Below are positions 3,243-34,405 of a stretch of DNA of 42,817 bases, in pieces. Below the pieces are notes generated by a model. The model saw only the letters and a program-made list of their open reading frames with translations, did not search any database and had not been told where the DNA came from. The position numbers and the translations under genes are program-made. Each line of letters begins with the position of its first letter. Positions within the stretch are counted from its first letter, which is position 1. Origin of the DNA: Tannerella forsythia (GTDB lineage Bacteria > Bacteroidota > Bacteroidia > Bacteroidales > Tannerellaceae); assembly GCF_003860135.1 (NCBI RefSeq), contig NZ_RQYN01000026.1, positions 1-42,817 of the forward strand, read 5' to 3'.

Positions 3243-3336
3243 GCTCCATCTTCCGAGCATTCACCACCGTTATAATATAAAACAGCAAATCCCCGATAAT
3301 GCTCGATTATCAGGGATTCGTTTCGGAGTGATTCGC
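3243..3336. repeat. left attachment repeat of the tRNA-Lys islet (94 bp)
   Basis: These 94 bases recur at 14601-14694 with a single difference (C at 3265, T at 14623). The copy contains the last 8 bases of the tRNA-Lys gene and the terminator hairpin found downstream of the intact tRNA. This is what is expected at the far end of an element inserted into a tRNA 3' end. Confidence 0.92.
3288..3318. terminator. duplicated tRNA-Lys terminator hairpin (left repeat copy)
   Basis: A 13-bp stem with one mismatch (AATCCC-GATAAT pairing with ATTATC-GGGATT) closes a 5-base loop. It is a copy of the hairpin at 14646-14676 carried by the attachment repeat. On the minus strand it lies about 130 bases beyond the stop of the calcium ATPase gene, so it may terminate the ter operon. 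The following T-run is weak. Confidence 0.5.
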
Positions 3337-3445
3337 TTTTATCCAATTAAAAAAATAGCATTGGCATTTATCCCTTAACTATCTTATTTTTTTAGAAGCG
3401 AATAAATATCATTTCTCTGATAATTTTACTGAAAACAAGCCTGAA

Positions 3446-6322
3446 TTATTTTTTAGTAAATCGTACTATTTCTCCAATCCATAAAACGAATGAAGTCGCC
3501 CCTATAATTATACCCCAATCTTTTAGAGAAAGTGGCACAGTGCGGAATACTTTTCCTCCAAATTCAACGATTAGAACTTGACCAACTAAAATCACAATTG
3601 CAACCAGAATAAACCCGATACAGTTTTTTATATTTGAAAAAGCAGATTTCCGTGTAAGAAAAGCTTTTGCGTTAAACATATTCCAGAATTGTAACATGAC
3701 AAAGATGGTAAAGAAACGTGATAAGTCATATGGGCTAACTACTCCATTCTCTGTGAATATAAATAATAGACCCAGTAAAAGTGCAACGAACGAAAAACCA
3801 ACAAATAAGATATTGAATCGCATTGCAGGTGTAATGATAAAAGCGTCATTTTTACGCGGCTTATTATCCATCACTTTCTCATTAGGGGGTAATGAAGCCA
3901 ACGCTCCAGCAGCAAAAGTATCCATAATTAAATTAACCCACAGCATTTGAGTCACAGTAAGAGGCAATTCATAACCAAATATCGATCCAAGCAGCACGAT
4001 AACCAAGGCTGCTACATTAATTGTTAGCTGAAACAGAATAAAACGTTGTATATTCTGATAAAGTGAACGCCCCCACATAACGGCCGAAGCTATACTCTTG
4101 AAGGAATCATCCAGCAAAGTAATATCACTGGCTTCTTTAGCCACAGATGTGCCACTGCCCATTGATAAACCAACTTGTGCATAGTTTAGAGCAGGAGCAT
4201 CATTTGTACCATCTCCTGTTACAGCAACAATCTCACCTGAGCGCTGTAACAACTGTACGAGTCTTTGCTTATCGGTTGGACGTGCACGGCACATTATTTT
4301 TAGATGTTCTACCCGTTTAAGAGCTTCTTCATCTGACAGTCTCTCAAACTCTGTTCCGGTAATGATGTTATGAAGTTTATCGCTTTCATTCCATATTCCG
4401 ATTTGACGACCAATTTCTCTCGCGGTTCCCGGTGTGTCTCCGGTAACAATCTTAACCTGAATGCCTGCATTTAAACATTCATTTACTGCCAGAGGAACAT
4501 CTTCACGAACAGGGTCAGAGATCGCTGTAAGCCCCAAATATGTAAGATTTACATTGACTAAATTCCCATTTTCGAAGCGAGGCATATCATCTTCAATAAT
4601 TTCATAAGCGAATCCAAGTATTCGCATGGCTTGATTCTGGTATTGTAATAATAACTCTTCGATTTCCTTTTCTGAATCGGAGACAGATTTCTTACCTGAT
4701 TTAAATAGTACATTATCTGATTTTGAAAGTACAATTTCAGGTGCTCCTTTTACGTATAGCACTTTCCTATTTAATAAAGGAGAGTTAATCAGTGTTGCCA
4801 TATATTTACGTTCGGTACTAAAGGTTAGCTGGTCAATAATCTCGGCACTTTCTCGTATACCCAAATAATCGACTTGCTGGTTATATAGCCATAATAATAA
4901 TGCTGCTTCCGTAGGATTACCTATAGATTTAATTTTTTGTGGTTGGGAAGAATCAAGATAGGCAGTTGAATTGACAGATATACTTTCTTTTATCAGATTA
5001 CTTAACTCGCTATTTGATAAAAGTTGATTGTCAAGGGCAAAGAATTGTGTTTCATAAACCTGCATCTGATTTTGAGTAAGCGTTCCTGTCTTATCAGTAC
5101 AAATAACAGTAGTAGCTCCCATTGTCTCACAAGCATGCATTTTTCTAACTAAGTTATTGTTCTGAAGCATTCGGCGCATACTTAAAGCCAAACTTAGCGT
5201 TACACTCATTGGTAACCCTTCAGGAACAGCCACTACTATTAAAGTTACAGCTACCATGAAGTATTGTAGAATACGCCCAGCAACATCTAAACTAATCCAC
5301 GATTCTGTATGCAACGGATTTATTCCGAAAGCAAACCCCATAACAGATAAAACAATGAAGACGCCTCCTCCCAGCCCTATCCATTGTAACCAACTTCTTC
5401 CATCAATACACTGGGGAACTTCTTTAGTCTTTCCACATAATTCAAAAGCGTCATAAATAATAGGAACCCAAACTTTAACAAGTACTACCATTGCGGAAAC
5501 AAAAATAATTCCAATTGAGCCAAGTTGTGCCATTGTAAAAGTGGTCGTTCCTAAAAATATATCTTTAATAAACAAAGCAAAAAAGGTAAGAATGGCAAGA
5601 ATAAATCCAACTACACCTATAAATTTAGCCAGCTTGTCAAGTTGTTGGTTAAGAGGTGTCTCTTCTCTTTTCATTTCTGTTGATTGTTCAGCAACTTTTC
5701 CATATTCAGTTGAATCTCCAACTCTCTTTATCTCTAAAATTCCATGTCCATCCATCACTTTTGTTCCACGCATCGCCCAATTAGATGGATAGGTAGCTTC
5801 CGATTGGAAATCGGAAGGATTGGTTGTTTTATCAATCATTGGTTCACCGGTCAAACATGATTCATCTACTTGTAAGGAAACAGCTTCTAACAGCTCTCCA
5901 TCCGCAGGTACTTCTTCACCTGTTCCAAGAATTACAATGTCGCCAACCACGATGTCTTTTTTGGGTACTTCACAGACAAGCTCATTCCGAATTACTTTTA
6001 CCAAAGCATCATCATTAACTTGATTTAATACGTCGAATTTCTTGTTGGCATCTAATTCAAACCAGAAAGCAACACCTGTTGCCAAAAATATTGCACAAAA
6101 AATACCGATAGTTTCAGCAAATTCCCAATGTACAAAGGAAATTCCTAATGATAGAAATGCTGCTATTAACAATATCCGAATGATGGGGTCTTCAAATTTT
6201 TCCGCAAAGAGCCTCCACAAAGGTTCTTTCTCTGGTGGGGTTAATACATTAGTACCATGTTTTTCCCTGCTTTCAAGTACTTTTTCATTGGTTAAGCCTG
6301 TGAAATGATGTTTTCGTTCCAT
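3446..6322 (-). CDS. calcium-translocating P-type ATPase, PMCA type
   Basis: This 958-residue P-type ATPase should pump Ca2+ out of the cytosol using ATP. Visible motifs are LTGEP in the actuator domain, VPEGLP in membrane helix 4, and the phosphorylation motif ICTDKTGTLTQNQ with Asp near residue 410. The hinge GDGTNDAP lies near residue 700, and a C-terminal bundle of about six membrane helices follows. The N-terminal cation-ATPase segment begins at MERKHHFTGL, so I start at 6322 rather than 12 codons upstream. It is the last gene of the ter operon, 13 bases after the kinase-like gene. Its presence beside Ca2+-binding TerD proteins suggests that the operon handles cytosolic calcium. The ion assignment rests on family resemblance. 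Confidence 0.9.
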   Translation of the reverse strand: MERKHHFTGLTNEKVLESREKHGTNVLTPPEKEPLWRLFAEKFEDPIIRILLIAAFLSLGISFVHWEFAETIGIFCAIFLATGVAFWFELDANKKFDVLNQVNDDALVKVIRNELVCEVPKKDIVVGDIVILGTGEEVPADGELLEAVSLQVDESCLTGEPMIDKTTNPSDFQSEATYPSNWAMRGTKVMDGHGILEIKRVGDSTEYGKVAEQSTEMKREETPLNQQLDKLAKFIGVVGFILAILTFFALFIKDIFLGTTTFTMAQLGSIGIIFVSAMVVLVKVWVPIIYDAFELCGKTKEVPQCIDGRSWLQWIGLGGGVFIVLSVMGFAFGINPLHTESWISLDVAGRILQYFMVAVTLIVVAVPEGLPMSVTLSLALSMRRMLQNNNLVRKMHACETMGATTVICTDKTGTLTQNQMQVYETQFFALDNQLLSNSELSNLIKESISVNSTAYLDSSQPQKIKSIGNPTEAALLLWLYNQQVDYLGIRESAEIIDQLTFSTERKYMATLINSPLLNRKVLYVKGAPEIVLSKSDNVLFKSGKKSVSDSEKEIEELLLQYQNQAMRILGFAYEIIEDDMPRFENGNLVNVNLTYLGLTAISDPVREDVPLAVNECLNAGIQVKIVTGDTPGTAREIGRQIGIWNESDKLHNIITGTEFERLSDEEALKRVEHLKIMCRARPTDKQRLVQLLQRSGEIVAVTGDGTNDAPALNYAQVGLSMGSGTSVAKEASDITLLDDSFKSIASAVMWGRSLYQNIQRFILFQLTINVAALVIVLLGSIFGYELPLTVTQMLWVNLIMDTFAAGALASLPPNEKVMDNKPRKNDAFIITPAMRFNILFVGFSFVALLLGLLFIFTENGVVSPYDLSRFFTIFVMLQFWNMFNAKAFLTRKSAFSNIKNCIGFILVAIVILVGQVLIVEFGGKVFRTVPLSLKDWGIIIGATSFVLWIGEIVRFTKK

Positions 6323-6335
6323 GATGATGTTTATT

Positions 6336-7856
6336 TTAGTTATTTGTAAGTGATACAATAGCGACTCTCCCGCCTTCTTCTTTTAAAAGCAACAGTCTCT
6401 TTCCGTTGGTGATTTCCACCATTGAGCCCACTGGAATCAATCTGTCCTCCGTCAAATCCTTTAATGAAGATAACTTCTCGTTGACAAAGAACCATTTGTT
6501 ATTGAAATAAGAGAAATATCCAACCCTTGCTTTTTGTACATCAGTTAGCTTTTCATTTCTAATTACATTTCGATTGGAATGCCATTGATGCAAAGTAGAA
6601 TTATTGTAAACAACCAATCGTTGATTATCCGGTTTCCAAACACTTGGTTTGAACTGATAGAAAAAATCCAACACCGGGATTGATTGATTATATTTTGTTC
6701 CGCAAAACGGACAATGGGTATCTTTTGTGTTATTATAAATAAACCATTTTTGCCCGCATCTCGGATTACTACATTGGAGTTTCAAATCATTGGTTTTAAT
6801 CAGTGCATGCTCCCAAGCATCTGCAGTAGGTCTTTCGATCGGGTTATGTAAACCTTTAATAAATGCTTGGTCAAATAGTGCCTTTAAATATGGCCCTGTG
6901 ATGGTATATGGGGTTTTCTTCAAATCAGTCCAGGGATAAAATTTTGTGAGGTTATCACCATATTCTCGTTTGAAATTCCGATTGCTTGCATCTGTTGGAT
7001 GCTCAATAAACAAAGCTTTTGAGCCCATCAATAAATCTTCTTCTTCTTCAGACTCTACAGCTCCAAAATAATTACCACCACGGAGAGGATGCCGATAAAG
7101 TAAATACATGTATATTAGTACAGCTAAAGCATGCAAGTCTGTTAAGCGATTCGGTAATTTTCTGTTTAGGTCATTTTTGTCTAAATGTTTTGTCGCTAAC
7201 ACTTCAGGAGCTATAAAATCAGCAGTTCCTATAACATCAGGAGGAAATAGACCTGGCACAACAAGTCCATCAATATCAATAATAGCAGCTGTTTTACTTA
7301 TCGGGTCAATTAATACATTTTTATAGGATAAATCAGAATGAGCCAAGCCTGCTGCATGTAATCTTTTTACTCCTCTAGCTATGTTTACACATATCTGAAA
7401 ATAACTTAGCCAATTCCCCAATTCGGATTCATCCAATTTCGACTTGGATTGAATGACCCTGAATTTTGCACTCGCAAACCATTTTCCTTCTTTTTCTTTT
7501 CCTTTTAATAGATCATTGTTTGCATATCCTTTTTGGAAAAAAAAATTTCGGCTATAACACGGAACAATGATTCCCACTTTTTTATCTGCTTCTACTACAT
7601 CTGTAGGCCAAGTGTATAGGTTTTTGTAGTAGCTCCCGCCTTCTTTATTGAAGAAACTGTCAAAATACTGGGTCACAATTTTTTTTAATCGTTCTCTGGA
7701 ATTAAAATCCTGTGAGTCTCTATAGAAGGCAACCACATAAGACTTATCCGGACTAAAAAAAACATCTTTCATTCCTCCCCGCATAGGTTCCCCATTATCT
7801 ACATATTGATACGTTTTACCCGGATTAATGATTGACGAAACAGTTCTTGTGTTCAT
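6336..7856 (-). CDS. Ser/Thr protein kinase-like protein with C-terminal zinc ribbon (TerY-associated)
   Basis: This 506-residue protein has a eukaryotic-type kinase fold. The catalytic loop reads HSDLSYKN near residue 170, followed by a metal-binding segment IIDIDG and an activation-segment APEV. I cannot point confidently to a canonical VAIK lysine; the matching strand seems to read VVAFYR. At about residues 360-390 a four-cysteine zinc ribbon is present, two CxxC-type pairs in CSNPRCG and CPFCG. The C-terminal ~120 residues look like a small beta-rich domain. TerY-type VWA proteins, a PP2C phosphatase and such a kinase form a known conserved triad in Ter systems, and all three are adjacent here. 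It probably phosphorylates partners in this operon; the substrates are unknown. Confidence 0.82.
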   Translation of the reverse strand: MNTRTVSSIINPGKTYQYVDNGEPMRGGMKDVFFSPDKSYVVAFYRDSQDFNSRERLKKIVTQYFDSFFNKEGGSYYKNLYTWPTDVVEADKKVGIIVPCYSRNFFFQKGYANNDLLKGKEKEGKWFASAKFRVIQSKSKLDESELGNWLSYFQICVNIARGVKRLHAAGLAHSDLSYKNVLIDPISKTAAIIDIDGLVVPGLFPPDVIGTADFIAPEVLATKHLDKNDLNRKLPNRLTDLHALAVLIYMYLLYRHPLRGGNYFGAVESEEEEDLLMGSKALFIEHPTDASNRNFKREYGDNLTKFYPWTDLKKTPYTITGPYLKALFDQAFIKGLHNPIERPTADAWEHALIKTNDLKLQCSNPRCGQKWFIYNNTKDTHCPFCGTKYNQSIPVLDFFYQFKPSVWKPDNQRLVVYNNSTLHQWHSNRNVIRNEKLTDVQKARVGYFSYFNNKWFFVNEKLSSLKDLTEDRLIPVGSMVEITNGKRLLLLKEEGGRVAIVSLTNN

Positions 7857-7873
7857 ATTCGTTCTTTGATAAA

Positions 7874-9352
7874 TTAAAAAATGACAGCTAAGGTTCTATC
7901 ATCATGATTTCCCGGACTCCAAAAGTTCATCCATTGTAATAACTGACCCTCTATTCCTTTATTATCAGGATTAAACTCAACCTTTACACACTCTTCATTG
8001 TCCCCACTTAAATCTCTTAAAAAATCCATCCACTTTTCGTGTTTCTCAAGGTTTGCTTCCACAACAAACTTAGGATCATAAATTCCGTCAGTCATCAAAA
8101 ACAGATAGGAAAAATCTGGAATAAGATGAAAGTTGAACCGAGAAGCCATTGGGTACTCACTGGAATGAAAAATTTCAGATTGAGTAATGAATCGTGTCCC
8201 TCCTCCAAATTCACCAACATCTAGCCAGTTAAGCAGGGATACCTCTGTTTGGTTCTTATTCATTACTGCAATTGGGCAGTCTCCAACACTAAAAGTAAGA
8301 ATAAGGTATCCTAACTCATACCTTTTATACAAAGCGAATATTAGAGTTGAGTGAAAATAATCCAATGGATTTTTAGCCTTAGGATTATTAAATAGTTCAG
8401 GGTTATTCTGATGGGTTTTTATTGCTGCTTCCCGAATTTTACTATGTGCAAATGTGGTTGCTTTGTATAAAATATGTTTTGATAAAACTTCCGATTCTCT
8501 CCATATCGTTTCGTCTTTAGTTTGGATAAACTCCTTTATTTTGTGTTCAAATTCTTTATCAAGATTGAGGTCTTCTGTTTGCTCAAAATGGTCAATCACG
8601 GCATGGCAAGCAATTTTTGATCCTTGCCTAGATAAAGTACAACTACCAGCGCCATCGGCAACAGCAACTATTGACCAGCCAGTATTTTTATAGTATTTGA
8701 AAGCAAAATCGTCATCGCGGAAGGAACCGATATTCTTATGAGAGCGGCCTCTCTTGGAAGCAACAACAATATGCTTTTCTCCTAATTGACTGAAATTATA
8801 GTCATCATCTTTTTTCCAAAAAATAGCACTTTCATCGCTCGGAATATCTTTCCAAAGTGTTTTAGGGTCAGGATTAATGATAAGGGGAATTACTTTTTCG
8901 TGTAAAGGTTCATTTTCGCTTTCTCCTTTTATTTTAAATAATAGCCTGATTTTAACATCACCGCTTTGCATGGGAATTCCTGTAATTGTTTGGTCTTTCT
9001 TATCGTAAGTCAACCCTAATTTAGAGAATCCATCAACATCGAATTCAGACAAGTCTGTTAACTTTAATTGCTCAAAATCAATTCTTGCCTGATATGGTTT
9101 ATTGACAGTTGCGTTCGGAATGCTAATTTGTTGTGCAATAATGTCTTCTATCCTATTTCTTAATTTCCATTTATCCATTAGCATATTCTGAATATCAACA
9201 ATTTGTCTTACAGCAGCAATATTTGAGTCGCTTTCTATAAACTCATTTAATAAATTGATCCTATCTTGCTGTATAAAAACCCCTTTTGTCTTAAAAAGAG
9301 ATTGAATGTATGATTTTGCTATTTCCATCTTATCCTTGTGTTCTATTGACAT
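7874..9352 (-). CDS. PP2C-family protein phosphatase with N-terminal Ig-like domain
   Basis: The C-terminal ~270 residues carry PP2C metal-site motifs: an RDDDF segment, VADGAGS, a late FLMTDGIYD and a terminal NHDDRTLAVI. Upstream, about residues 50-180, a segment ending in TITGIPMQSGDVKIRL resembles He_PIG/cadherin-like Ig folds. The phosphatase is therefore fused to an adhesion-type beta-sandwich. The open frame extends to 9499, but that part overlaps the zinc domain of the upstream VWA gene in another frame and is not protein-like. I prefer the Met at 9352; 9376 is possible. The gene overlaps its upstream neighbour by 23 bases and precedes the kinase gene by 17, implying translational coupling. 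It should reverse phosphorylation set by the kinase. Confidence 0.82.
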   Translation of the reverse strand: MSIEHKDKMEIAKSYIQSLFKTKGVFIQQDRINLLNEFIESDSNIAAVRQIVDIQNMLMDKWKLRNRIEDIIAQQISIPNATVNKPYQARIDFEQLKLTDLSEFDVDGFSKLGLTYDKKDQTITGIPMQSGDVKIRLLFKIKGESENEPLHEKVIPLIINPDPKTLWKDIPSDESAIFWKKDDDYNFSQLGEKHIVVASKRGRSHKNIGSFRDDDFAFKYYKNTGWSIVAVADGAGSCTLSRQGSKIACHAVIDHFEQTEDLNLDKEFEHKIKEFIQTKDETIWRESEVLSKHILYKATTFAHSKIREAAIKTHQNNPELFNNPKAKNPLDYFHSTLIFALYKRYELGYLILTFSVGDCPIAVMNKNQTEVSLLNWLDVGEFGGGTRFITQSEIFHSSEYPMASRFNFHLIPDFSYLFLMTDGIYDPKFVVEANLEKHEKWMDFLRDLSGDNEECVKVEFNPDNKGIEGQLLQWMNFWSPGNHDDRTLAVIF

Positions 9353-10370
9353 TAATGCCACCTTCACCGAGTCCATAAGTTCCTTGGCTTGCACACCAAG
9401 GGCAAGTACTGATTTTTTCGCTACCAATACAATGAATTTTTCCACAGCCACATACTGCAAAGGCGAATTGATTTCCACACCAAGGACAAGTCGGTGCACC
9501 GATTAATTTGTCGGTATTTATTTTATAATTGGGTACAGATTCCTCTGAAAGTTCAAAGTATGAATTATCGACTTGAAAAGCTCCGACTAACCTGTAATTA
9601 AACCCTATATCTCCCGAATCATGTACAAAAACATTTTTCCTGTATTTCATAAGATAAGGACGCTTTGTATTTTGACATTTTGCAGCTAATATTACAAAGT
9701 TTTCATCTACTCTTGGTTTTGAGATTTCTTTTGTCAAGTCAATTCTGGAAATAGTTTCTCCATCTAATTGGGCTAGTTCAAATCCTAATGTATTATTCTC
9801 AACGCTTGCGCTACTGGTTTTAATCGAATCGGTAACCCATTTGAAAAACTGCTTGTATGCAGAAGCGTCGGTATTTCTGAATTGAAGCACATTGTCAGTT
9901 AATTTACCAAGTAAATGGTTGTCTGTTTCATCTCCAAATGAAACAGCGATTAAATTTGCCGTCCTCTGCCAGTTACTTTTCCATTCTGCTATTGCTGGCT
10001 TAGTTTCATCGGTAGGCACACCATCTGTAAACAAGAAAACAATAGGTTTCCAATCACCTTTTTGTTCAATGGTTGTTTTGATTGTATTTTTCCGTAGTTC
10101 ATACATTAGATGCCCTAAACCATTGCTCAAAGAAGTACCACTTCCAATCGGAAATTTTGGAGGGTAGAAATTAACAATCTCTTGCAAAGGAATAAGTGTT
10201 TTTGACCGACCTGCAAATACAATAATGGAAACCCATACTGTTTCTATGGCATTGGCGTCTGTTTTCAATGCTTGAATAATGGTTTCTAAGCCTTCTTCCA
10301 CCTGCTGAACAGGTACTCCCACCATTGATTCGGAAACATCAATTAAAAAATATATTGGTAATCGTCTCAT
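9330..10370 (-). CDS. VWA-domain protein with TerY-C zinc-binding domain
   Basis: This 346-residue protein begins with a von Willebrand A domain, MRRLPIYFLIDVSESM, whose DVSES is the MIDAS DxSxS motif. A linker follows, then a cysteine-rich C-terminal domain at about residues 290-325 (CPWCGNQF, CGCGKIHC, CPWC). This matches the TerY-C metal-binding module. It is the third of three adjacent VWA genes and the only one with the zinc module. VWA domains bind partners through a metal ion; in Ter systems TerY is thought to scaffold the phosphatase and kinase. The gene follows the second VWA gene by 27 bases and overlaps the phosphatase gene. Confidence 0.85.
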   Translation of the reverse strand: MRRLPIYFLIDVSESMVGVPVQQVEEGLETIIQALKTDANAIETVWVSIIVFAGRSKTLIPLQEIVNFYPPKFPIGSGTSLSNGLGHLMYELRKNTIKTTIEQKGDWKPIVFLFTDGVPTDETKPAIAEWKSNWQRTANLIAVSFGDETDNHLLGKLTDNVLQFRNTDASAYKQFFKWVTDSIKTSSASVENNTLGFELAQLDGETISRIDLTKEISKPRVDENFVILAAKCQNTKRPYLMKYRKNVFVHDSGDIGFNYRLVGAFQVDNSYFELSEESVPNYKINTDKLIGAPTCPWCGNQFAFAVCGCGKIHCIGSEKISTCPWCASQGTYGLGEGGINVNRTQG

Positions 10371-10397
10371 AATATTTACACATTAAAAATCGGAGAT

Positions 10398-11033
10398 CTA
10401 TATGACTAAATGTACTTCTGATGGAGCTGGAGGGAGTGCTACCATATCTGTTACTCCCATACTCTTATTTCCTTGCTCGATTGTATCCGAGACCCATCTG
10501 AAAAACTGTTTTAAGGTATTACTGTCAGAAGTCTCTAAATGCACTACAGAATCACATAACTCGTTCAATTTGGAATCATCAGCCCAATCACCCGCAGCAC
10601 ACCCAATTATCGCTCCAAAATTCAACATTTTTATCCTTGGAATCATTTCTGAGTATAATTGTAAATCCGAGGGTTTTCCATCTGTGAAGATGAATAATAA
10701 TGGGCGCCAATCACCTTTTTGTGTAGGAGTTCCTTTTCTCACATCCATAGAGACTTTCTGGCATAATAACTCAAGAGCTTTCCCTGTGAAAGTTGGACCA
10801 CTTGGAGGGCAAACAATTTCAGGCAATTGCAGTGAGGGCAACTCTGTTAATGGTAAGATTTCTTTTATCTCTTTATCAAATGTAATAATGCTTACCCAAA
10901 GCGTTTCCGATGCTTGCGCATCGGAACGCAATGAATTTATCATGCCACTTAGTGCATTATTAAGGGCTTGAATAGGTTCTCCATTCATTGACCCGGATGT
11001 ATCCAACAGAAAATAAACCGGCAATCTCCTCAT
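10398..11033 (-). CDS. TerY-like von Willebrand A protein (second copy)
   Basis: This 211-residue single-domain VWA protein opens with MRRLPVYFLLDTSGSMNGEP, which carries an intact MIDAS DxSxS. The later segments FTDGKPSD and a terminal PPAPSEVHLVI match its neighbour. The start codon shares one base with the stop of the preceding VWA gene (TAATG), typical of translational coupling. Its near-identical layout to the next gene upstream indicates tandem duplication followed by divergence. It is probably a cytosolic scaffold for TerD, kinase and phosphatase partners. No signal peptide or membrane segment is seen. Confidence 0.87.
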   Translation of the reverse strand: MRRLPVYFLLDTSGSMNGEPIQALNNALSGMINSLRSDAQASETLWVSIITFDKEIKEILPLTELPSLQLPEIVCPPSGPTFTGKALELLCQKVSMDVRKGTPTQKGDWRPLLFIFTDGKPSDLQLYSEMIPRIKMLNFGAIIGCAAGDWADDSKLNELCDSVVHLETSDSNTLKQFFRWVSDTIEQGNKSMGVTDMVALPPAPSEVHLVI

Positions 11034-11671
11034 TATACGACGATATTTAATTCCGAAGGAGGAGGGGGCAGTTCATTCAATCCAGCTACTTCTTTGCCAC
11101 AATCTTCTATTTTTGTTGATGAAACACCAATGGAAGCAGTAACCCAAGCAAAAAATTTGGAAATACTTTGGCTGTCGGCTGTATCCAAGCTGACTACATT
11201 GTCTGTAATCTGTTTTAAAATATTTGTATCCGCTCCACTACCAGCAGCACAAGCAACAATGAATGCTATTTTCCGCTTTTTTAATTCAGTCAAGCCATTT
11301 TGCCAATCATCGGTTGGATTCCCATCAGTCATTATAAAAACTAATGGCTTCCAATCACCTTTTGTTTCTGAGGTTGTTTTAGCAACTTCATTGTCGATAC
11401 AATTACTGACGAGTTTCAAGGCTTCACCCAAAGCCGTTGTTCCACTTGCCTTTATATCCACCATCTGAAATGATCCTAAATCAGTTAAAGGAATAATTTG
11501 CTTCGCGGAACTGTCGAAGGTGATAATACTTAAGAAAGCTGTTTCTTGCGCTTGCGGGTTTTGCCGTAGTGAACTTATCATGACTTGTACTCCGTTTTTT
11601 ACAGCTTCAATCGGTTCACCACACATGGAACCAGATGTATCTAATAATAAATATACAGGAAGTCTTCTCAT
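11033..11671 (-). CDS. TerY-like von Willebrand A protein (first copy)
   Basis: This 212-residue single-domain VWA protein begins MRRLPVYLLLDTSGSMCGEP, with an intact MIDAS DxSxS, a central SGTTALGEAL loop supplying the MIDAS threonine, and a later MTDGNPTD. It resembles TerY of Ter systems. The C-terminus, ELPPPPSELNIVV, matches the second copy, and the two genes overlap by one base. It lies 10 bases after a TerD gene. Its role is inferred from the family: metal-dependent protein binding within the Ter complex in the cytosol. Confidence 0.88.
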   Translation of the reverse strand: MRRLPVYLLLDTSGSMCGEPIEAVKNGVQVMISSLRQNPQAQETAFLSIITFDSSAKQIIPLTDLGSFQMVDIKASGTTALGEALKLVSNCIDNEVAKTTSETKGDWKPLVFIMTDGNPTDDWQNGLTELKKRKIAFIVACAAGSGADTNILKQITDNVVSLDTADSQSISKFFAWVTASIGVSSTKIEDCGKEVAGLNELPPPPSELNIVV

Positions 11672-11681
11672 GGTTTCTGAA

Positions 11682-12353
11682 TTACTGGTAAATATATTTT
11701 TTCAGGATTTCGACAAAACTGTCTGTCTGGTATGGTTCTCCAATAGCTCTGAATTTCCAACCGCCATCTTTCCGATATGCTTCAGCAAAAACCATCGAGC
11801 ACATACCGTCCATTGTATAATCACCTGATAAATTATACCTTGTAATCTCTTTTCCTCTCGCATCAACCGCCCTGATAAAAGCGTTTTCAACCATCCCGAA
11901 ATGTTGATTTTTCTGTTTTCCTTGATAAATAGAAACGACAAATAGAATCTTCTGAAACTTTTCATCTAATGAATCTAATTTAACAATGATTTGCTCATCA
12001 TCCCCATCACCGGCTCCAGTTCTATTGTCTCCTGTTAACCAAATATGACCCGAAGGGTGTTTCATTGAGTTAAAATAAATAACATCTCCTTGATATAAAA
12101 TAACCTGTCTTCCACCAACATAAACTGTCCGTCCAAGATTAGCTACTTTTCCATTGCGATCTAATAAGAATGCAATAGCATCAAGATCATACTCATCTTC
12201 TCTCTCTCCAAAAAGTTTTCCTAATAATCCGCTTCCTTTTTTACGGACATCCCAACCTAATCCAATTGTAACAGAAGATAAGTTGTACACGTCTTCCCCT
12301 TTATCATTTTTGCGCAGATCTATGGTCTGACCTTTTTGTAAATTAATTGCCAT
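11682..12353 (-). CDS. TerD-family calcium-binding stress protein (second terD gene)
   Basis: This 223-residue protein starts with MAINLQKGQTIDL and has the TerD-fold hallmarks: an IGLGWDV strand, YDLDAIAFLL, and the acidic metal-binding cluster TGAGDGDDEQI. It ends with FAEAYRKDGGWKFRAIGEPY. TerD proteins bind Ca2+ and are tied to tellurite tolerance and other envelope or phage stresses. An extra loop (KKGSGLLGKLFGEREDE) precedes the DLDA motif, so it is longer than the other TerD in this operon. It lies 6 bases after that gene and 10 before the first VWA gene. Tellurite resistance itself is not shown by the sequence. Confidence 0.9.
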   Translation of the reverse strand: MAINLQKGQTIDLRKNDKGEDVYNLSSVTIGLGWDVRKKGSGLLGKLFGEREDEYDLDAIAFLLDRNGKVANLGRTVYVGGRQVILYQGDVIYFNSMKHPSGHIWLTGDNRTGAGDGDDEQIIVKLDSLDEKFQKILFVVSIYQGKQKNQHFGMVENAFIRAVDARGKEITRYNLSGDYTMDGMCSMVFAEAYRKDGGWKFRAIGEPYQTDSFVEILKKYIYQ

Positions 12354-12359
12354 ATCTTC

Positions 12360-12935
12360 TCATTTTATGATTTTTCCTTTATAATATTTCGATAGAAAGA
12401 ATGCCAAGTCTTCTTTATAACCAATTCCGGATGCTTCAAATTTCCATTTACCCTCTTTTTTATAAAGCCTTCCGAATTCAACAGCTGTCTCAATTGAGAA
12501 ATCTTCTCCTAATTCATATTTTGCTATTTCTTTACCAGTTGAATCGTCAACTATCCGGATGTATGAATTGCGAACTTGTCCATAATTTTGTTTTCTTTGT
12601 ATCGCTTCATGGATAGTTACTACAAATAAAATTTCATTGATGCGATGGTCAATTTTTGACAAATCAATCTCAATGGTTTCATCATCTCCATCTTCACTAT
12701 TACCTCCTGTAGGATCATCTCCTGTGTGATGCAAAGCCCCATCTGGAGAATCAGTATTTCCATAAAAGACAAAATAAGGTTCCGACGGTATTTGTCTGTT
12801 TGTGTCAATCATGAATGCAGAAGCATCCAAATCAAAATCAAAACCGGTCCCTTCGTTTGGATTCCACCCTAATCCTACACTCATCCTTGTTAGGCCAATA
12901 TCTATTTTTTGGCCCTTTTGTAAGTTAATTGCCAT
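12360..12935 (-). CDS. TerD-family calcium-binding stress protein (first gene of the operon)
   Basis: This 191-residue TerD protein has MAINLQKGQKIDI, a VGLGWNPN strand, FDLDASAFMI, and the acidic Ca2+ cluster SEDGDDETIEI. I use the Met at 12935 because it aligns with the start of its neighbour; a Met 10 codons upstream (12965) is also in frame. It is the promoter-proximal gene. The left inverted repeat of the putative invertible promoter starts 42 bases upstream. In the orientation read here, no consensus promoter on the minus strand lies between the repeat and this gene. The operon therefore looks silent unless the segment inverts or a non-consensus promoter is used. Confidence 0.9.
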   Translation of the reverse strand: MAINLQKGQKIDIGLTRMSVGLGWNPNEGTGFDFDLDASAFMIDTNRQIPSEPYFVFYGNTDSPDGALHHTGDDPTGGNSEDGDDETIEIDLSKIDHRINEILFVVTIHEAIQRKQNYGQVRNSYIRIVDDSTGKEIAKYELGEDFSIETAVEFGRLYKKEGKWKFEASGIGYKEDLAFFLSKYYKGKIIK

Positions 12936-12976
12936 AACACTTTGATTTAAATTATTAATAAACATTTTTTATACCT

Positions 12977-12999
12977 CCTCTTCTTTAGAGGTGGTACTT
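12977..12999. repeat. left 23-bp inverted repeat of the putative invertible promoter
   Basis: This is the exact reverse complement of 13324-13346. Within it, CCTCT and AGAGG form a dyad around a 5-base spacer. With flanking bases the arms extend to 9 bp with one mismatch, as expected for a tyrosine-recombinase core site. Confidence 0.88.
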
Positions 13000-13295
13000 A
13001 AATAGGCTTTGTAGTATTGTGTTGTTTGTTAGTGTTCTGTGGTTCCCTTTTGACTTTTGAGGAAGGATTTTAAAACAGATTTGTAAAACAATAACAAGGA
13101 AGTATTTTTATATTATTTGTAATTAAACTGAGAATCAATCGGTATTTATTTATTGCATCGATTTTAAATATATTTTTTTCGAACATTTGCATAAACACGT
13201 TGAAAAACAGCTTCTTGATTGAGAAAAAAGCAAAAGTCGCATCTCTTGTAAAAAAAAATATAATTGTCGACAATCTATTATTGAAAATTCTTTTC

Positions 13296-13303
13296 TATCT
13301 TTG
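13296..13303 (+). promoter_or_regulatory. Bacteroidetes -7 box inside the invertible segment
   Basis: TATCTTTG matches TAnnTTTG exactly and lies 20 bases inside the right inverted repeat. A -33 element is weak; TTG occurs at 13281-13283 and 13264-13266, neither at ideal spacing. In the present orientation it would transcribe antisense into the recombinase gene. Confidence 0.65.
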
Positions 13304-13323
13304 TAGAGAATTTACTTTCGATA

Positions 13324-13346
13324 AAGTACCACCTCTAAAGAAGAGG
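13324..13346. repeat. right 23-bp inverted repeat of the putative invertible promoter
   Basis: This is the exact reverse complement of 12977-12999. It ends 18 bases before the stop codon of the minus-strand recombinase gene. It has the same internal CCTCT / AGAGG dyad. Confidence 0.88.
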
Positions 13347-13364
13347 TAGTCATTCTTTTAATTA

Positions 13365-14555
13365 CTATAATGCTATGACTTGAGCATTTGCGTTATCTAT
13401 AATAGACTGATCGATAGAAGCCAAATAGATACGTGTTGTTTTTTCGTTCTCGTGTCCCATCCCTTCACTGATAACTTGCACAGAGATTCCTTTTCGAAAT
13501 GCTATTGTAGCCCATGAATGCCTTGCTACATAAGAACTCAACGGTTTTTCTAGCTCTATCATTTCAGATAATCGTTTCAAGCGTTTATTGTATGTGCGCA
13601 AGTGACTGATATAATTATGGTTCTTTCTATTGTATATAGGAAGTATGTAGTTGTCTATAGTTAGGAGCCTATATCTTTCTATGATTTCTTCAATACATTT
13701 CTCAATCTTAATAGACAAAACTTGTTTGGTCTTGCTCCGAGAATAAATGATATAGCCATTTTTAAGGTTACTTTGTCTGAGATTGGCCATGTCTATAAAA
13801 GACATACCTCTTGTATAAAAACTAAACATGAAAATGTCTCGTGCTATTTCTAAATTGACTTGCTTAGAAAGCTCAAGTTTGCACAGCTTCAAAATTACAG
13901 ATTCATTCACCGCTTTTTTGGATGTTTTATCGACACCTGTATAAACATCTCTGAATGGATTATTTGAAACTGCCAACCCCTTGCGTATAGCCTGATTATA
14001 TATTGATCTTAATGATCTCATATAACAAGAAACAGTATTTCTACACACATTATTATTTACCAAATAAGCCTCATACTTGTTGATTAGCACGTTGTCCATC
14101 TTTTTAATCCAAATGTCTTCTCCACGTCTAAATCGAGAAAAGCTCCGATATGCTGTCTCACATATTGATGCCGTTTTAATTCGATTTTCAGATTTTAGCC
14201 TTTTAATCCGGTTTTTTATAAAAGAAAAAAAATAGCCATTGAAAGAATTATTTACATAATGTTCTACTAATTCCTCTATTGTATACTCTCCTCTCTTTTC
14301 TAATATAGATATTAGCTCATTAATCTGTCTCCTCTCTCTTTCTAAACCGTCTTTAACGGTCCTTAAGTAAACGCCTCTCTCACTAGATGATTTATCTGCT
14401 ACCACAGATTCTAAATGAGTATCCCACTCGCAAGGAAATAGACGAAAATGTGTCGTAATCAGTTTGGTTTTACGATTATGAATTAATTGGAAATAAAGTA
14501 CGCCTTCCTTGTCTTTAATAGTCGATTTTCTGAATTTTATTTTTATCGAAGTCAT
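13365..14555 (-). CDS. tyrosine recombinase (integrase and/or promoter invertase)
   Basis: This 396-residue protein is a Bacteroidetes-type tyrosine recombinase. An N-terminal arm-binding-like domain (about 1-100) and an SAM-like core-binding domain (about 110-210) precede the catalytic domain. Catalytic features are TRGMSFIDM (Arg near residue 249), SRSKTKQ, YVARHSW (Arg near 342, with Tyr where many relatives have His), GMGHENEKTTRIY and the nucleophile Tyr near 377. It is next to the tRNA repeat, which favours integrase. It is also next to the 23-bp inverted repeats, which favours invertase, and the RGMSFIDM type occurs in both groups of Bacteroidetes recombinases. It is the only recombinase in the islet, so one enzyme may do both jobs or only one. 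Confidence 0.93.
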   Translation of the reverse strand: MTSIKIKFRKSTIKDKEGVLYFQLIHNRKTKLITTHFRLFPCEWDTHLESVVADKSSSERGVYLRTVKDGLERERRQINELISILEKRGEYTIEELVEHYVNNSFNGYFFSFIKNRIKRLKSENRIKTASICETAYRSFSRFRRGEDIWIKKMDNVLINKYEAYLVNNNVCRNTVSCYMRSLRSIYNQAIRKGLAVSNNPFRDVYTGVDKTSKKAVNESVILKLCKLELSKQVNLEIARDIFMFSFYTRGMSFIDMANLRQSNLKNGYIIYSRSKTKQVLSIKIEKCIEEIIERYRLLTIDNYILPIYNRKNHNYISHLRTYNKRLKRLSEMIELEKPLSSYVARHSWATIAFRKGISVQVISEGMGHENEKTTRIYLASIDQSIIDNANAQVIAL

Positions 14556-14600
14556 TTCTTTTACTCTTTCTTGAAATGTGTTTTTTCAGAATTATTCAAT

Positions 14601-14694
14601 GCTCCATCTTCCGAGCATTCACTACCGTTATAATATAAAACAGCAAATCCCCGATAATGCTCGATTATCAGGGATTCGTTTCGGAGTGATTCGC
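14601..14694. repeat. right attachment repeat of the islet, overlapping tRNA-Lys 3' end
   Basis: This copy differs from 3243-3336 at one base (14623). Its last 8 bases (14687-14694) are the discriminator base and the 3' strand of the tRNA acceptor stem, so insertion leaves an intact tRNA gene on this side. The recombinase gene starts 45 bases inward. Confidence 0.92.
14646..14676 (-). terminator. hairpin terminator of tRNA-Lys
   Basis: A 13-bp stem with one mismatch and a 5-base loop lies 10 bases beyond the tRNA 3' end on the minus strand. It is followed by a loose T-rich tract (TGCTGTTTTAT). It lies inside the attachment repeat and so is duplicated at 3288-3318. Confidence 0.6.
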
Positions 14695-14759
14695 CTGGGG
14701 CTCGAACCCAGGACCCCATCCTTAAAAGGGATGTGCTCTACCTGCTGAGCTAGCGAATC
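14687..14759 (-). tRNA. tRNA-Lys (anticodon TTT)
   Basis: The 73-base minus-strand sequence folds as a complete cloverleaf. It has a 7-bp acceptor stem GATTCGC/GCGAATC with discriminator A, a D stem GCTC/GAGC, an anticodon stem CATCC/GGATG around loop CTTTTAA giving anticodon TTT, and a T stem CTGGG/CCCAG with loop TTCGAGC. CCA is not encoded. The 3' end is the integration site of the islet. Confidence 0.97.
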
Positions 14760-14858
14760 TACCTTGAAGTACTTTTTTAATGCGAGTGCAAAGGTAATGC
14801 TTTTTTTTAGAAAAACAACTAATGCCGCAATTTTTCCAGATTTCTTTTTTCATTTTCA

Positions 14859-14866
14859 TATCTTTG
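14859..14866 (+). promoter_or_regulatory. Bacteroidetes-type -7 box before the PBP4-type gene
   Basis: TATCTTTG matches TAnnTTTG. Transcription would begin near 14873, 14 bases before the chosen start codon at 14887. This argues against the longer open frame that starts at 14764. Confidence 0.6.
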
Positions 14867-14886
14867 CCTCTAAATATGTATATAAA

Positions 14887-16380
14887 ATGAGAAAAATCAT
14901 GATTCATCAGCGGATGATTATTTGGGTCGCATGTCTTTGCTTCGGTACACAGACGCTCTTCTCCCAGTCCGTTCCTGCTCCACTGAAACGTTTCTTAGAC
15001 AAACCGATGGTTCGAGGAGCATCCGTCGCATTGATGGTGAAAGAAGTAAACAAAGGGACTGTTGTATACGAGTATGAAAGTGAACGTCAGCTGATACCTG
15101 CCTCAGTCATGAAAACCGTCACGGCCGCCACGGCTCTCGAGATACTGGGTGAAGACTTCCGTTTCGAGACGTCTGTTTCGTACGATGGAGAGATTCGTGA
15201 CAGCATCCTGCGCGGCAACTTATACCTCTGCGGAAGTGGAGACCCTACGCTCAACTCGTCCGAGCTTGATACCCCGAAAGACAGTATCCTTAGACTCTGG
15301 TCGGCAGCCATCCGCAAGGCCGGCATCCGCGAAGTTACGGGAGCGCTGATTGTGGACGAAAGTATTTTCGATACCGAAGGCGTATCGATGAAATGGATGC
15401 GTGAAGACCTTGGAAGCGAATACGGACAGGGCAGCTATGGGCTGAACATCTTCGACAATCGGTTCCGTCTGTACCTTGAAAGCGGTGTAGCCGGCACAAC
15501 GCCGACGATTAAATACTGTGAACCGGACATGCCGTCTCTCACGTTTCACAACTACGTCAAAGCTGTTCCGGCACCTGCCGACAGTTGCTTTATCACAGGA
15601 TTTCCTTTCTCCGACGAACGTTATCTTTACGGTGCGATCCCCGCGCGCCGCTCCCATTTCAAGCTGACGGCCGACATTCCCGATCCGGCGCTTTTTGCGG
15701 CCCGCTACGTCCATGCTTTTTTTCAGCGCGAAGGTATCCGTATCCAAGGCGCTCCTTCATGTCATCGCATTCTCTCGCGGATGGGGCAGTGGAAAGAGAC
15801 GACTCGCAAGACTTTGATCACGACTTATTCGCCTCCCCTCAAGGACCTCGCCCGCATATTTTGTTTCGTCAGCCATAACCTGTATGCCGACGCCGTGTTC
15901 AAAACGCTCGGGTTGCGTTACGCTCCTTCCTCGAAAGAGGCGATCTCTTCTTTCGGAAGAGGAGCACAGGTCGTTACGCAGTATTGGAAGCAGAAAGGGA
16001 TCGATTCCTCTTCGCTCTGGATGTTCGACGGGAGCGGTCTGGCCATTACCAACAAAGTAACGGCCGAATTCCTGTGCGACGTATATACTTACATGGCCTT
16101 GCGCTCGAAAGCATCGGAGGCTTTCGTGCATTCGTTGCCGCGAGCAGGGATAGACGGCACATTACGAAATATGATGAAGGGAAGCTCGTTGCAGGGAAAA
16201 GCACGACTGAAAAGCGGTAGCATGAGCCGTGTCCTGTGTTATGGCGGATATATGGACCACAACGGTAAGCGCTATGCCGTTGTGATATTAGTCAATAACT
16301 TCACGGGAAAAAGCCGCCGGATGAGAGCCTCTATCGAGGAGTTACTGCTCTCGCTTTTCAAAAAAACAACACCGGTCTAA
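14887..16380 (+). CDS. dacB: D-alanyl-D-alanine carboxypeptidase/endopeptidase (PBP4 type)
   Basis: This 497-residue class C penicillin-binding protein should cleave peptidoglycan peptides in the periplasm. A signal peptide (hydrophobic MIIWVACLCFG, cleavage near FSQS) follows the start. Catalytic motifs are SVMK with Ser near residue 73, SHN in the middle, and KSG at about 442-444, in the order and spacing of DacB. I start at 14887, or possibly 14899, because the -7 box at 14859-14866 excludes the 41 upstream codons, which are low-complexity. It reads away from tRNA-Lys and is an ordinary chromosomal flank of the islet. Confidence 0.93.
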   Translation: MRKIMIHQRMIIWVACLCFGTQTLFSQSVPAPLKRFLDKPMVRGASVALMVKEVNKGTVVYEYESERQLIPASVMKTVTAATALEILGEDFRFETSVSYDGEIRDSILRGNLYLCGSGDPTLNSSELDTPKDSILRLWSAAIRKAGIREVTGALIVDESIFDTEGVSMKWMREDLGSEYGQGSYGLNIFDNRFRLYLESGVAGTTPTIKYCEPDMPSLTFHNYVKAVPAPADSCFITGFPFSDERYLYGAIPARRSHFKLTADIPDPALFAARYVHAFFQREGIRIQGAPSCHRILSRMGQWKETTRKTLITTYSPPLKDLARIFCFVSHNLYADAVFKTLGLRYAPSSKEAISSFGRGAQVVTQYWKQKGIDSSSLWMFDGSGLAITNKVTAEFLCDVYTYMALRSKASEAFVHSLPRAGIDGTLRNMMKGSSLQGKARLKSGSMSRVLCYGGYMDHNGKRYAVVILVNNFTGKSRRMRASIEELLLSLFKKTTPV

Positions 16381-32794: not shown

Positions 32795-32826
32795 AAAGAA
32801 CTATTCATGCAACATAGTAACTAACA

Positions 32827-32889
32827 ATGAACAAAATTATTTGCATCGGTTTAGGATATATTGGTTTCCCGACGGCGGCGATGCGGTGA
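32827..32889 (+). pseudogene. truncated wecC start (19-codon remnant)
   Basis: The first 58 bases match 34348-34405, the start of the intact wecC, at 57 of 58 positions (difference at 32880). The reading frame continues for two codons of unrelated sequence and then stops (TGA at 32887-32889). It marks the left edge of the inserted fic segment and retains the wecC start codon in its original operon position. Confidence 0.9.
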
Positions 32890-34142: not shown

Positions 34143-34347
34143 TAACTTGCACCCTTTCTCTAAAAACATTCAGAAACAACAACACATAGACTTCTGCCTA
34201 TACGGTATAGACGTGGTTTTCAAAACCCAGAGTACTAGAGACGAGGACTATTTACTGTTATCTGCCCTATTCAAGACCGTTATCGGCAGGATCACAATGA
34301 AATGATTGTAAGTAATCTTCATAATAGATAAAGAACAGACAAAAACT

Positions 34348-34405
34348 ATGAACAAAATTATTTGCATCGGTTTAGGATATATTGGTTTCCCGACGGCGGC
34401 AATGC
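34348..34405. repeat. second copy of the 58-bp direct repeat (true wecC start)
   Basis: This matches 32827-32884 at 57 of 58 bases. Together with that copy it brackets the fic segment 32885-34347 (1,463 bp). The repeats begin exactly at the start codon; the sequences upstream of the two copies differ. Confidence 0.92.

Follow-up and report, generated by a model that had tools for sequence, protein, structure and literature searches.

Does an operon of TerD, TerY, PP2C phosphatase and kinase genes in Tannerella forsythia stand under the control of an invertible promoter? The question arises from a pair of inverted repeats in the 42,817-nt stretch of DNA analysed here (“the window”), which the initial annotation interpreted as a phase switch captured in its OFF state. 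We consider it very likely that the locus is a local promoter switch for the ter operon, worked by a tyrosine recombinase. The neighbouring recombinase probably flips the segment and would thereby switch the entire stress or defence operon between ON and OFF. For this organism, we infer inversion, orientation-dependent transcription and the function of the operon from sequence.

The segment, its recombinase and the ter operon

The positions of the features are given in Table 1. The two repeats are complementary at 23 of 23 positions with 324 bp between them, as originally reported, and are the sole perfect pair among the five inverted-repeat pairs reported for the whole window (at least 18 nt, at most 1.2 kb). 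An internal dyad, CCTCT-TCTTT-AGAGG, can be read from the repeat sequence, again in agreement with the initial annotation. The sites have palindromic arms and asymmetric centres, and the centres lie in inverted order, which is how sites that a tyrosine recombinase inverts should be arranged. The exact 23-bp repeat had no matches in IMG/VR.

When both strands were scanned, the sole TAnnTTTG sequence in the segment was TATCTTTG, and its minus strand has none. Between 12936 and 14600, the minus strand contains one TAnnTTTG only, starting at 13897 within the recombinase gene. Apart from that box, none faces terD in the sequenced orientation over this upstream region. The earlier claims of a single full box pointing away from ter, and of no minus-strand box before terD, are therefore borne out. 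Only the -7 box is clear; we saw no convincing -33 element. The right recombination site (13331-13347) is terminator-like on the plus strand (one found; shuffle mean 0.1), and might end OFF-state transcripts.

Table 1 Features of the switch, its cargo and the surrounding islet
Feature	Position	Strand	Remark
Left 94-bp direct repeat bounding islet	3243..3336		98.9% identical to 14601-14694
P-type Ca2+ ATPase	3446..6358	-	
Protein kinase	6336..7856	-	
PP2C phosphatase	7874..9499	-	Overlap with terY
TerY (VWA + TerY_C)	9330..10370	-	
VWA-domain protein	10398..11033	-	
VWA-domain protein	11033..11671	-	
TerD, operon gene 2	11682..12353	-	
TerD, operon gene 1	12360..12965	-	Conserved start at 12935 (start codon checked)
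Left 23-bp inverted repeat (recombination site nearer the cargo)	12977..12999		Kept in sister species G025
Invertible segment interior, 324 bp	13000..13323		About 89% identity to G025 over 270 nt
Promoter box TATCTTTG	13296..13303	+	Toward recombinase 3′ end (OFF for ter); same aligned place in relatives
Right 23-bp inverted repeat (recombination site nearer the recombinase)	13324..13346		
Tyrosine recombinase, 396 aa, presumed invertase	13365..14555	-	Pfam Arm_5, SAM_5, Phage_integrase
Right 94-bp direct repeat	14601..14694		Overlaps tRNA-Lys 3′ end
tRNA-Lys (ttt), islet insertion site	14686..14759	-	ARAGORN

The stop codon of the recombinase gene is 18 bp from the right repeat, the distance given originally. 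The protein matches the Pfam Phage_integrase family with an E-value of 9.5e-13, and residues R249, K275, R345, H346, H368 and Y377, which we take to be the catalytic motif residues of a tyrosine recombinase, are invariant in seven relatives. Its dN/dS ratio is 0.15 in comparison with the sister species G025. These residues and this ratio show an intact recombinase that purifying selection maintains. Searches with NCBIfam gave only generic Xer/integrase-type matches, far under the cut-off, and the similar solved structures comprise four distinct sequences (XerC-like, XerA, an integrase and IntI4) that cover the catalytic half only.

Two patterns recur within the 14 long segments that we compared. 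T[AT]AAAC[AG]AA occurs 13 times in six segments (shuffle mean 0.9) and AAACA[CT]G.TGA six times in six segments (shuffle mean 0.0); these enrichments are descriptive, since the patterns were derived from the same segments on which they were counted. These candidate accessory motifs may serve the Arm_5 domain as arm-type sites.

Beyond the segment are eight closely packed ORFs on one strand (3446-12965), the number given in the initial annotation, co-directional with the recombinase and in line behind the switch. Their order is TerD, TerD, VWA, VWA, TerY, PP2C, kinase and Ca2+ ATPase, and this single run thus combines TerD, VWA/TerY, PP2C and kinase genes, as expected of a Ter/TerY/PP2C/kinase operon. 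Six operon genes have dN/dS ratios of 0.05-0.20 between the window and G025, the kinase being left out. The PP2C gene evolves much faster than its neighbours in the same comparison (dN/dS 0.76; 43 non-synonymous versus 15 synonymous changes). Its true start is probably internal, because the ORF overlaps terY. With PADLOC-DB 2.0.0, the operon received no ter-system label; the kinase had weak kinase-domain matches only (best PD-T4-6, E-value 9.5e-06) and the other eight proteins scanned had no match. The operon is thus not a known anti-phage system by these defence models.

Repeats and segment orientation among relatives

The locus of the sister species of Tannerella (G025, NZ_JAUMYS010000001.1; locus L082) keeps the layout, with 96.4% identity over window positions 3317-15316. 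One recombination site is unchanged and the other has one mismatch, so the sites are near-perfect while the segment interior diverges. The orientation of the segment is the same in both species, and the one assembly examined for the window's organism shows a single orientation.

Three more divergent loci combine a recombinase, a segment of about 315-325 bp between repeats of its own, and TerD genes. In another Tannerella genome (G022, locus L025), the recombinase is 69% identical to that of the window, and the repeats are a perfect 24-bp pair of different sequence, 325 bp apart. The segment carries TATCTTTG in the same direction as in the window, and is followed by TerD (56% identical) and then TerY (70%). 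L089, from Bacteroidia MS502-39, has four TerD-type genes and a VWA gene up to the contig end. L095, from Dysgonamonadaceae, has two TerD-type genes up to the contig end, and no TAnnTTTG near either end of its segment.

We found inverted repeats (score at least 14) 3′ of the recombinase gene in 73 of 100 partly redundant loci with at least 450 bp of flank, compared to 0/60 control windows located 2.2-3.3 kb farther away and 0/94 mononucleotide-shuffled flanks. Inverted repeats beside relatives of this recombinase are therefore more frequent than chance. No pair was detected at the other 27 loci. Among the closest 23 loci (L082-L104, recombinase 52-94% identical), 14 have a repeat pair and some others have a short flank; L088 (66% identical) has the flank and no pair. 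Two close recombinase relatives are possibly decayed or single-site forms: L026 (5720-6674), with one site-like dyad only at the 3′ end, and L041, where no repeat was found at the 3′ end.

Relatives with the segment in the opposite orientation, which the initial annotation had recommended looking for, do exist. L083 and L085 are two modules of one genome, with recombinases 73% identical to the window's, and their segments are 96% identical and mutually reversed. More distantly (recombinases 40-42% identical to the window's), Leyella stercorea DSM 18206 (L153) has the same 165-nt interior as L. stercorea An906 (L157) and a Prevotellaceae metagenome genome (L161), identical and reversed relative to both, next to a collinear recombinase-side flank of 8336 bp at 99.99%. 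The first gene behind the segment in DSM 18206 appears to belong to the rRNA adenine dimethylase family.

L089 is a less firm case. A TAnnTTTG box faces terD there, and the best match of its interior is reversed relative to nine of 13 OFF-type segments, forward but weak relative to the other four, and forward relative to L085 and L036, which are reversed as well. This segment is most likely in the ON orientation, as far as alignments can indicate. With L085, L089 and L036 reversed, 16 long segments can be aligned by eye so that the box and the internal motifs coincide.

In 70 distinct segments, the box points toward the recombinase in 47 (including L098, though its interior aligns reversed) and toward the cargo in 10, and 13 are undecided. 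OFF is therefore the commoner captured state. Because box-based calls misread some long segments, we used alignments for L036/L098, which a chance box labels OFF although its interior aligns reversed.

Ter operons lacking a recombinase offer a comparison. TerY_C is rare in the order (8/393 genomes including the window's, seven of them over the cut-off) and occurs in 9/41 Tannerella genomes, with a recombinase beside the operon in three (window, G025 and G022). We read upstream of terD in five recombinase-less operons (G023, G028, G031, G007 and G001), leaving out a sixth, G029. In these small numbers, four of the five have a fixed TAnnTTTG facing terD within 320 nt, and G001 has neither recombinase nor facing box. 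At switch loci, in equally small numbers, such a box is found in none of four OFF loci (window, G025, G022 and L095) and in the one ON locus (L089).

The islet at tRNA-Lys and exchange of cargo

The operon, switch and recombinase are the only contents of an islet (3337-14600) bounded by the 94-bp direct repeats, with no second recombinase between them. A direct repeat of the tRNA 3′ end thus bounds an integrase gene and its cargo, as in islands at tRNA sites. This arrangement suggests that the same enzyme could integrate the island. G025 has a 15/16 match to its own tRNA end on the far side, and in G026 the two islet flanks are on different contigs. Of 82 loci scanned, most have no tRNA nearby, and a co-directional tRNA at most 250 bp upstream of the recombinase was found in L082, L089, L090 and L150. 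In L095 and L136 the tRNA is farther off, with an apparent ribosomal protein S20 gene, identified by eye, in between. An exact match of at least 13 nt revealed no second tRNA-end copy in six loci; the far side is cut off in L082, L089, L090 and L095. Elsewhere in the window, an unexplained 62-bp direct repeat (97% identical) occurs at 32823-32884 and 34344-34405.

Within the close recombinase clade, 11 of 14 distinct loci with readable cargo resemble operons for intracellular signalling or conflict, a class name that is our own reading, aided by a study of such systems (PMC7159879). Ter cargo occurs in the window/L082, L025, L089 and L095. FHA, PP2C and kinase genes are found in L084 (by Pfam) and L094 (by similar start), and SrfB/SrfC in L036 (by Pfam) and L096 (by similar start). 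The second gene of L085 encodes a DO-GTPase, L086 has a HerA-like ATPase, and L101 has a tubulin-like protein that is under the Pfam cut-off. The cargo of L083, L087 and L092 has no clear class.

More distant relatives have shorter segments, and of the 44 first genes behind these, 13 match ResIII, 10 SNF2, five DUF3575 and four NusG-like. Up to 10 of these first genes have matches to PADLOC defence-helicase models, as single-gene matches rather than complete systems. In L106-L162, segments of about 115-230 bp precede restriction, DrmD-like helicase, SrfB and NusG-like genes. The gene content suggests that many Bacteroidales may have phase-variable defence loci.

A single origin of ter cargo was rejected: the five loci with ter cargo formed one clade in 0% of 200 bootstraps when 34 recombinases were placed in a tree, the tested group having been named after the relatives had been seen. 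Well-supported branches force at least three changes of ter cargo, with an AU p-value of 5e-32 against one ter clade. On this tree, cargo is exchanged within the recombinase clade. In L092 (6208-6669; the same locus as L027), the protein encoded behind a segment of this family starts with MIINLIKEQWIEIGLSK, which by eye resembles the start of TerD, and its only Pfam match is DUF6565. This N-terminus is a possible scar of cargo exchange.

A single recombinase might have two jobs, inserting a minimal island at the tRNA 3′ end and flipping the island's promoter, with cargo swapped between islands. We regard this dual role as rather unlikely. If it were true, the island would amount to a self-contained conflict operon that is both mobile and phase-variable.

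Alternative explanations and significance of the proposed switch

The recombinase could serve solely to integrate a genomic island at tRNA-Lys, with the repeats a relic or fixed, and no longer flipping. The islet boundaries fit this idea, given that no other recombinase is present between the 94-bp repeats at tRNA-Lys, and L089, L090 and L150 likewise have a close co-directional tRNA ahead of the recombinase. By contrast, near-identical segments occur in both orientations among relatives, the sites remain near-perfect although the interior diverges, and a nearby tRNA is missing from most of the scanned loci, so we find a pure integrase very improbable. An active switch might instead serve mainly to control the recombinase through antisense RNA, with ter expressed by read-through from the recombinase in either orientation. 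Such a role would suit the prevalence of boxes directed to the recombinase 3′ end (47/70) and the co-directionality of recombinase and ter. Against it, the right site resembles a terminator when read toward the recombinase, which would blunt antisense transcription, and a facing box that four of five recombinase-less ter operons possess is absent from the four OFF loci; this reading is, if anything, more improbable still.

It is also conceivable that the segment flips through the action of a recombinase encoded elsewhere in the genome. Master invertases of B. fragilis act at a distance (PMC4747536). Here, the repeats lie directly behind homologous recombinase genes at 73 of 100 loci, the adjacent recombinase is conserved, and the exact sites have no further copy in this genome assembly. 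A distant enzyme is accordingly the least probable of these explanations, and hardly to be expected.

We thus favour the local promoter switch. The tyrosine recombinase has intact motifs, inverted repeats surround the box, and both orientations exist among relatives, all of which are features of this class of switch. The recombinase would exchange strands at the two 23-bp sites and, because their asymmetric centres are in inverted order, recombination would invert the 324-bp segment. As sequenced, in the OFF state, the only box reads to the recombinase 3′ end, and no TAnnTTTG in front of ter faces it. Inversion would carry the box to 13020-13027 of the minus strand, some 85 nt upstream of the conserved start of TerD, where it would drive the eight-gene operon. 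The cells of a population would then be partly ter-ON and partly ter-OFF, which could amount to bet-hedging where a stress or defence response is costly.

Promoter inversion by tyrosine recombinases is of a known kind. The initial annotation named surface loci as its familiar setting; they are not the sole setting of this recombinase family, whose cargo is often intracellular or of a defence type. The B. fragilis Tsr19/BF2766 and IVp-I locus likewise has an invertible promoter immediately downstream of a tyrosine recombinase gene, and OFF is prevalent in the wild type, just as OFF is commoner here. Unlike here, the IVp-I cargo is an exopolysaccharide operon and Tsr19 also inverts a distant promoter (PMC4747536). 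In Bacteroidales, inversion also sets the expression of antibiotic-resistance genes, a different cargo (PMC8748976). Invertons of a defined gut community adjoin tyrosine-type invertase genes that are so oriented that the inverton cannot regulate them, as in our locus, and the main text contains neither “tellur” nor “defense” (PMC11892184).

The NTP-dependent conflict systems described in PMC7159879 contain DO-GTPase, PP2C, kinase and vWA domains like those of this operon and its sister cargo. TerD is named there as a likely nucleotide-derivative sensor, and “invert” is absent from the main text (PMC7159879). Our literature search, which covered mostly non-subscription papers and, among the matches listed, titles and the starts of abstracts, found no ter operon as the cargo of an invertible promoter, in keeping with the earlier suggestion that this case may be new.

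With such a switch, Ter/TerY/PP2C/kinase operons, the role of which remains under debate, would be subject to on/off phase variation. Such variation implies that the operon has a cost in one condition and a benefit in another, and the orientation that is selected would be a handle for finding the condition in which the operon pays. The locus also draws attention to a clade of recombinases in which most of the readable cargo consists of intracellular signalling or conflict systems, not surface coats.
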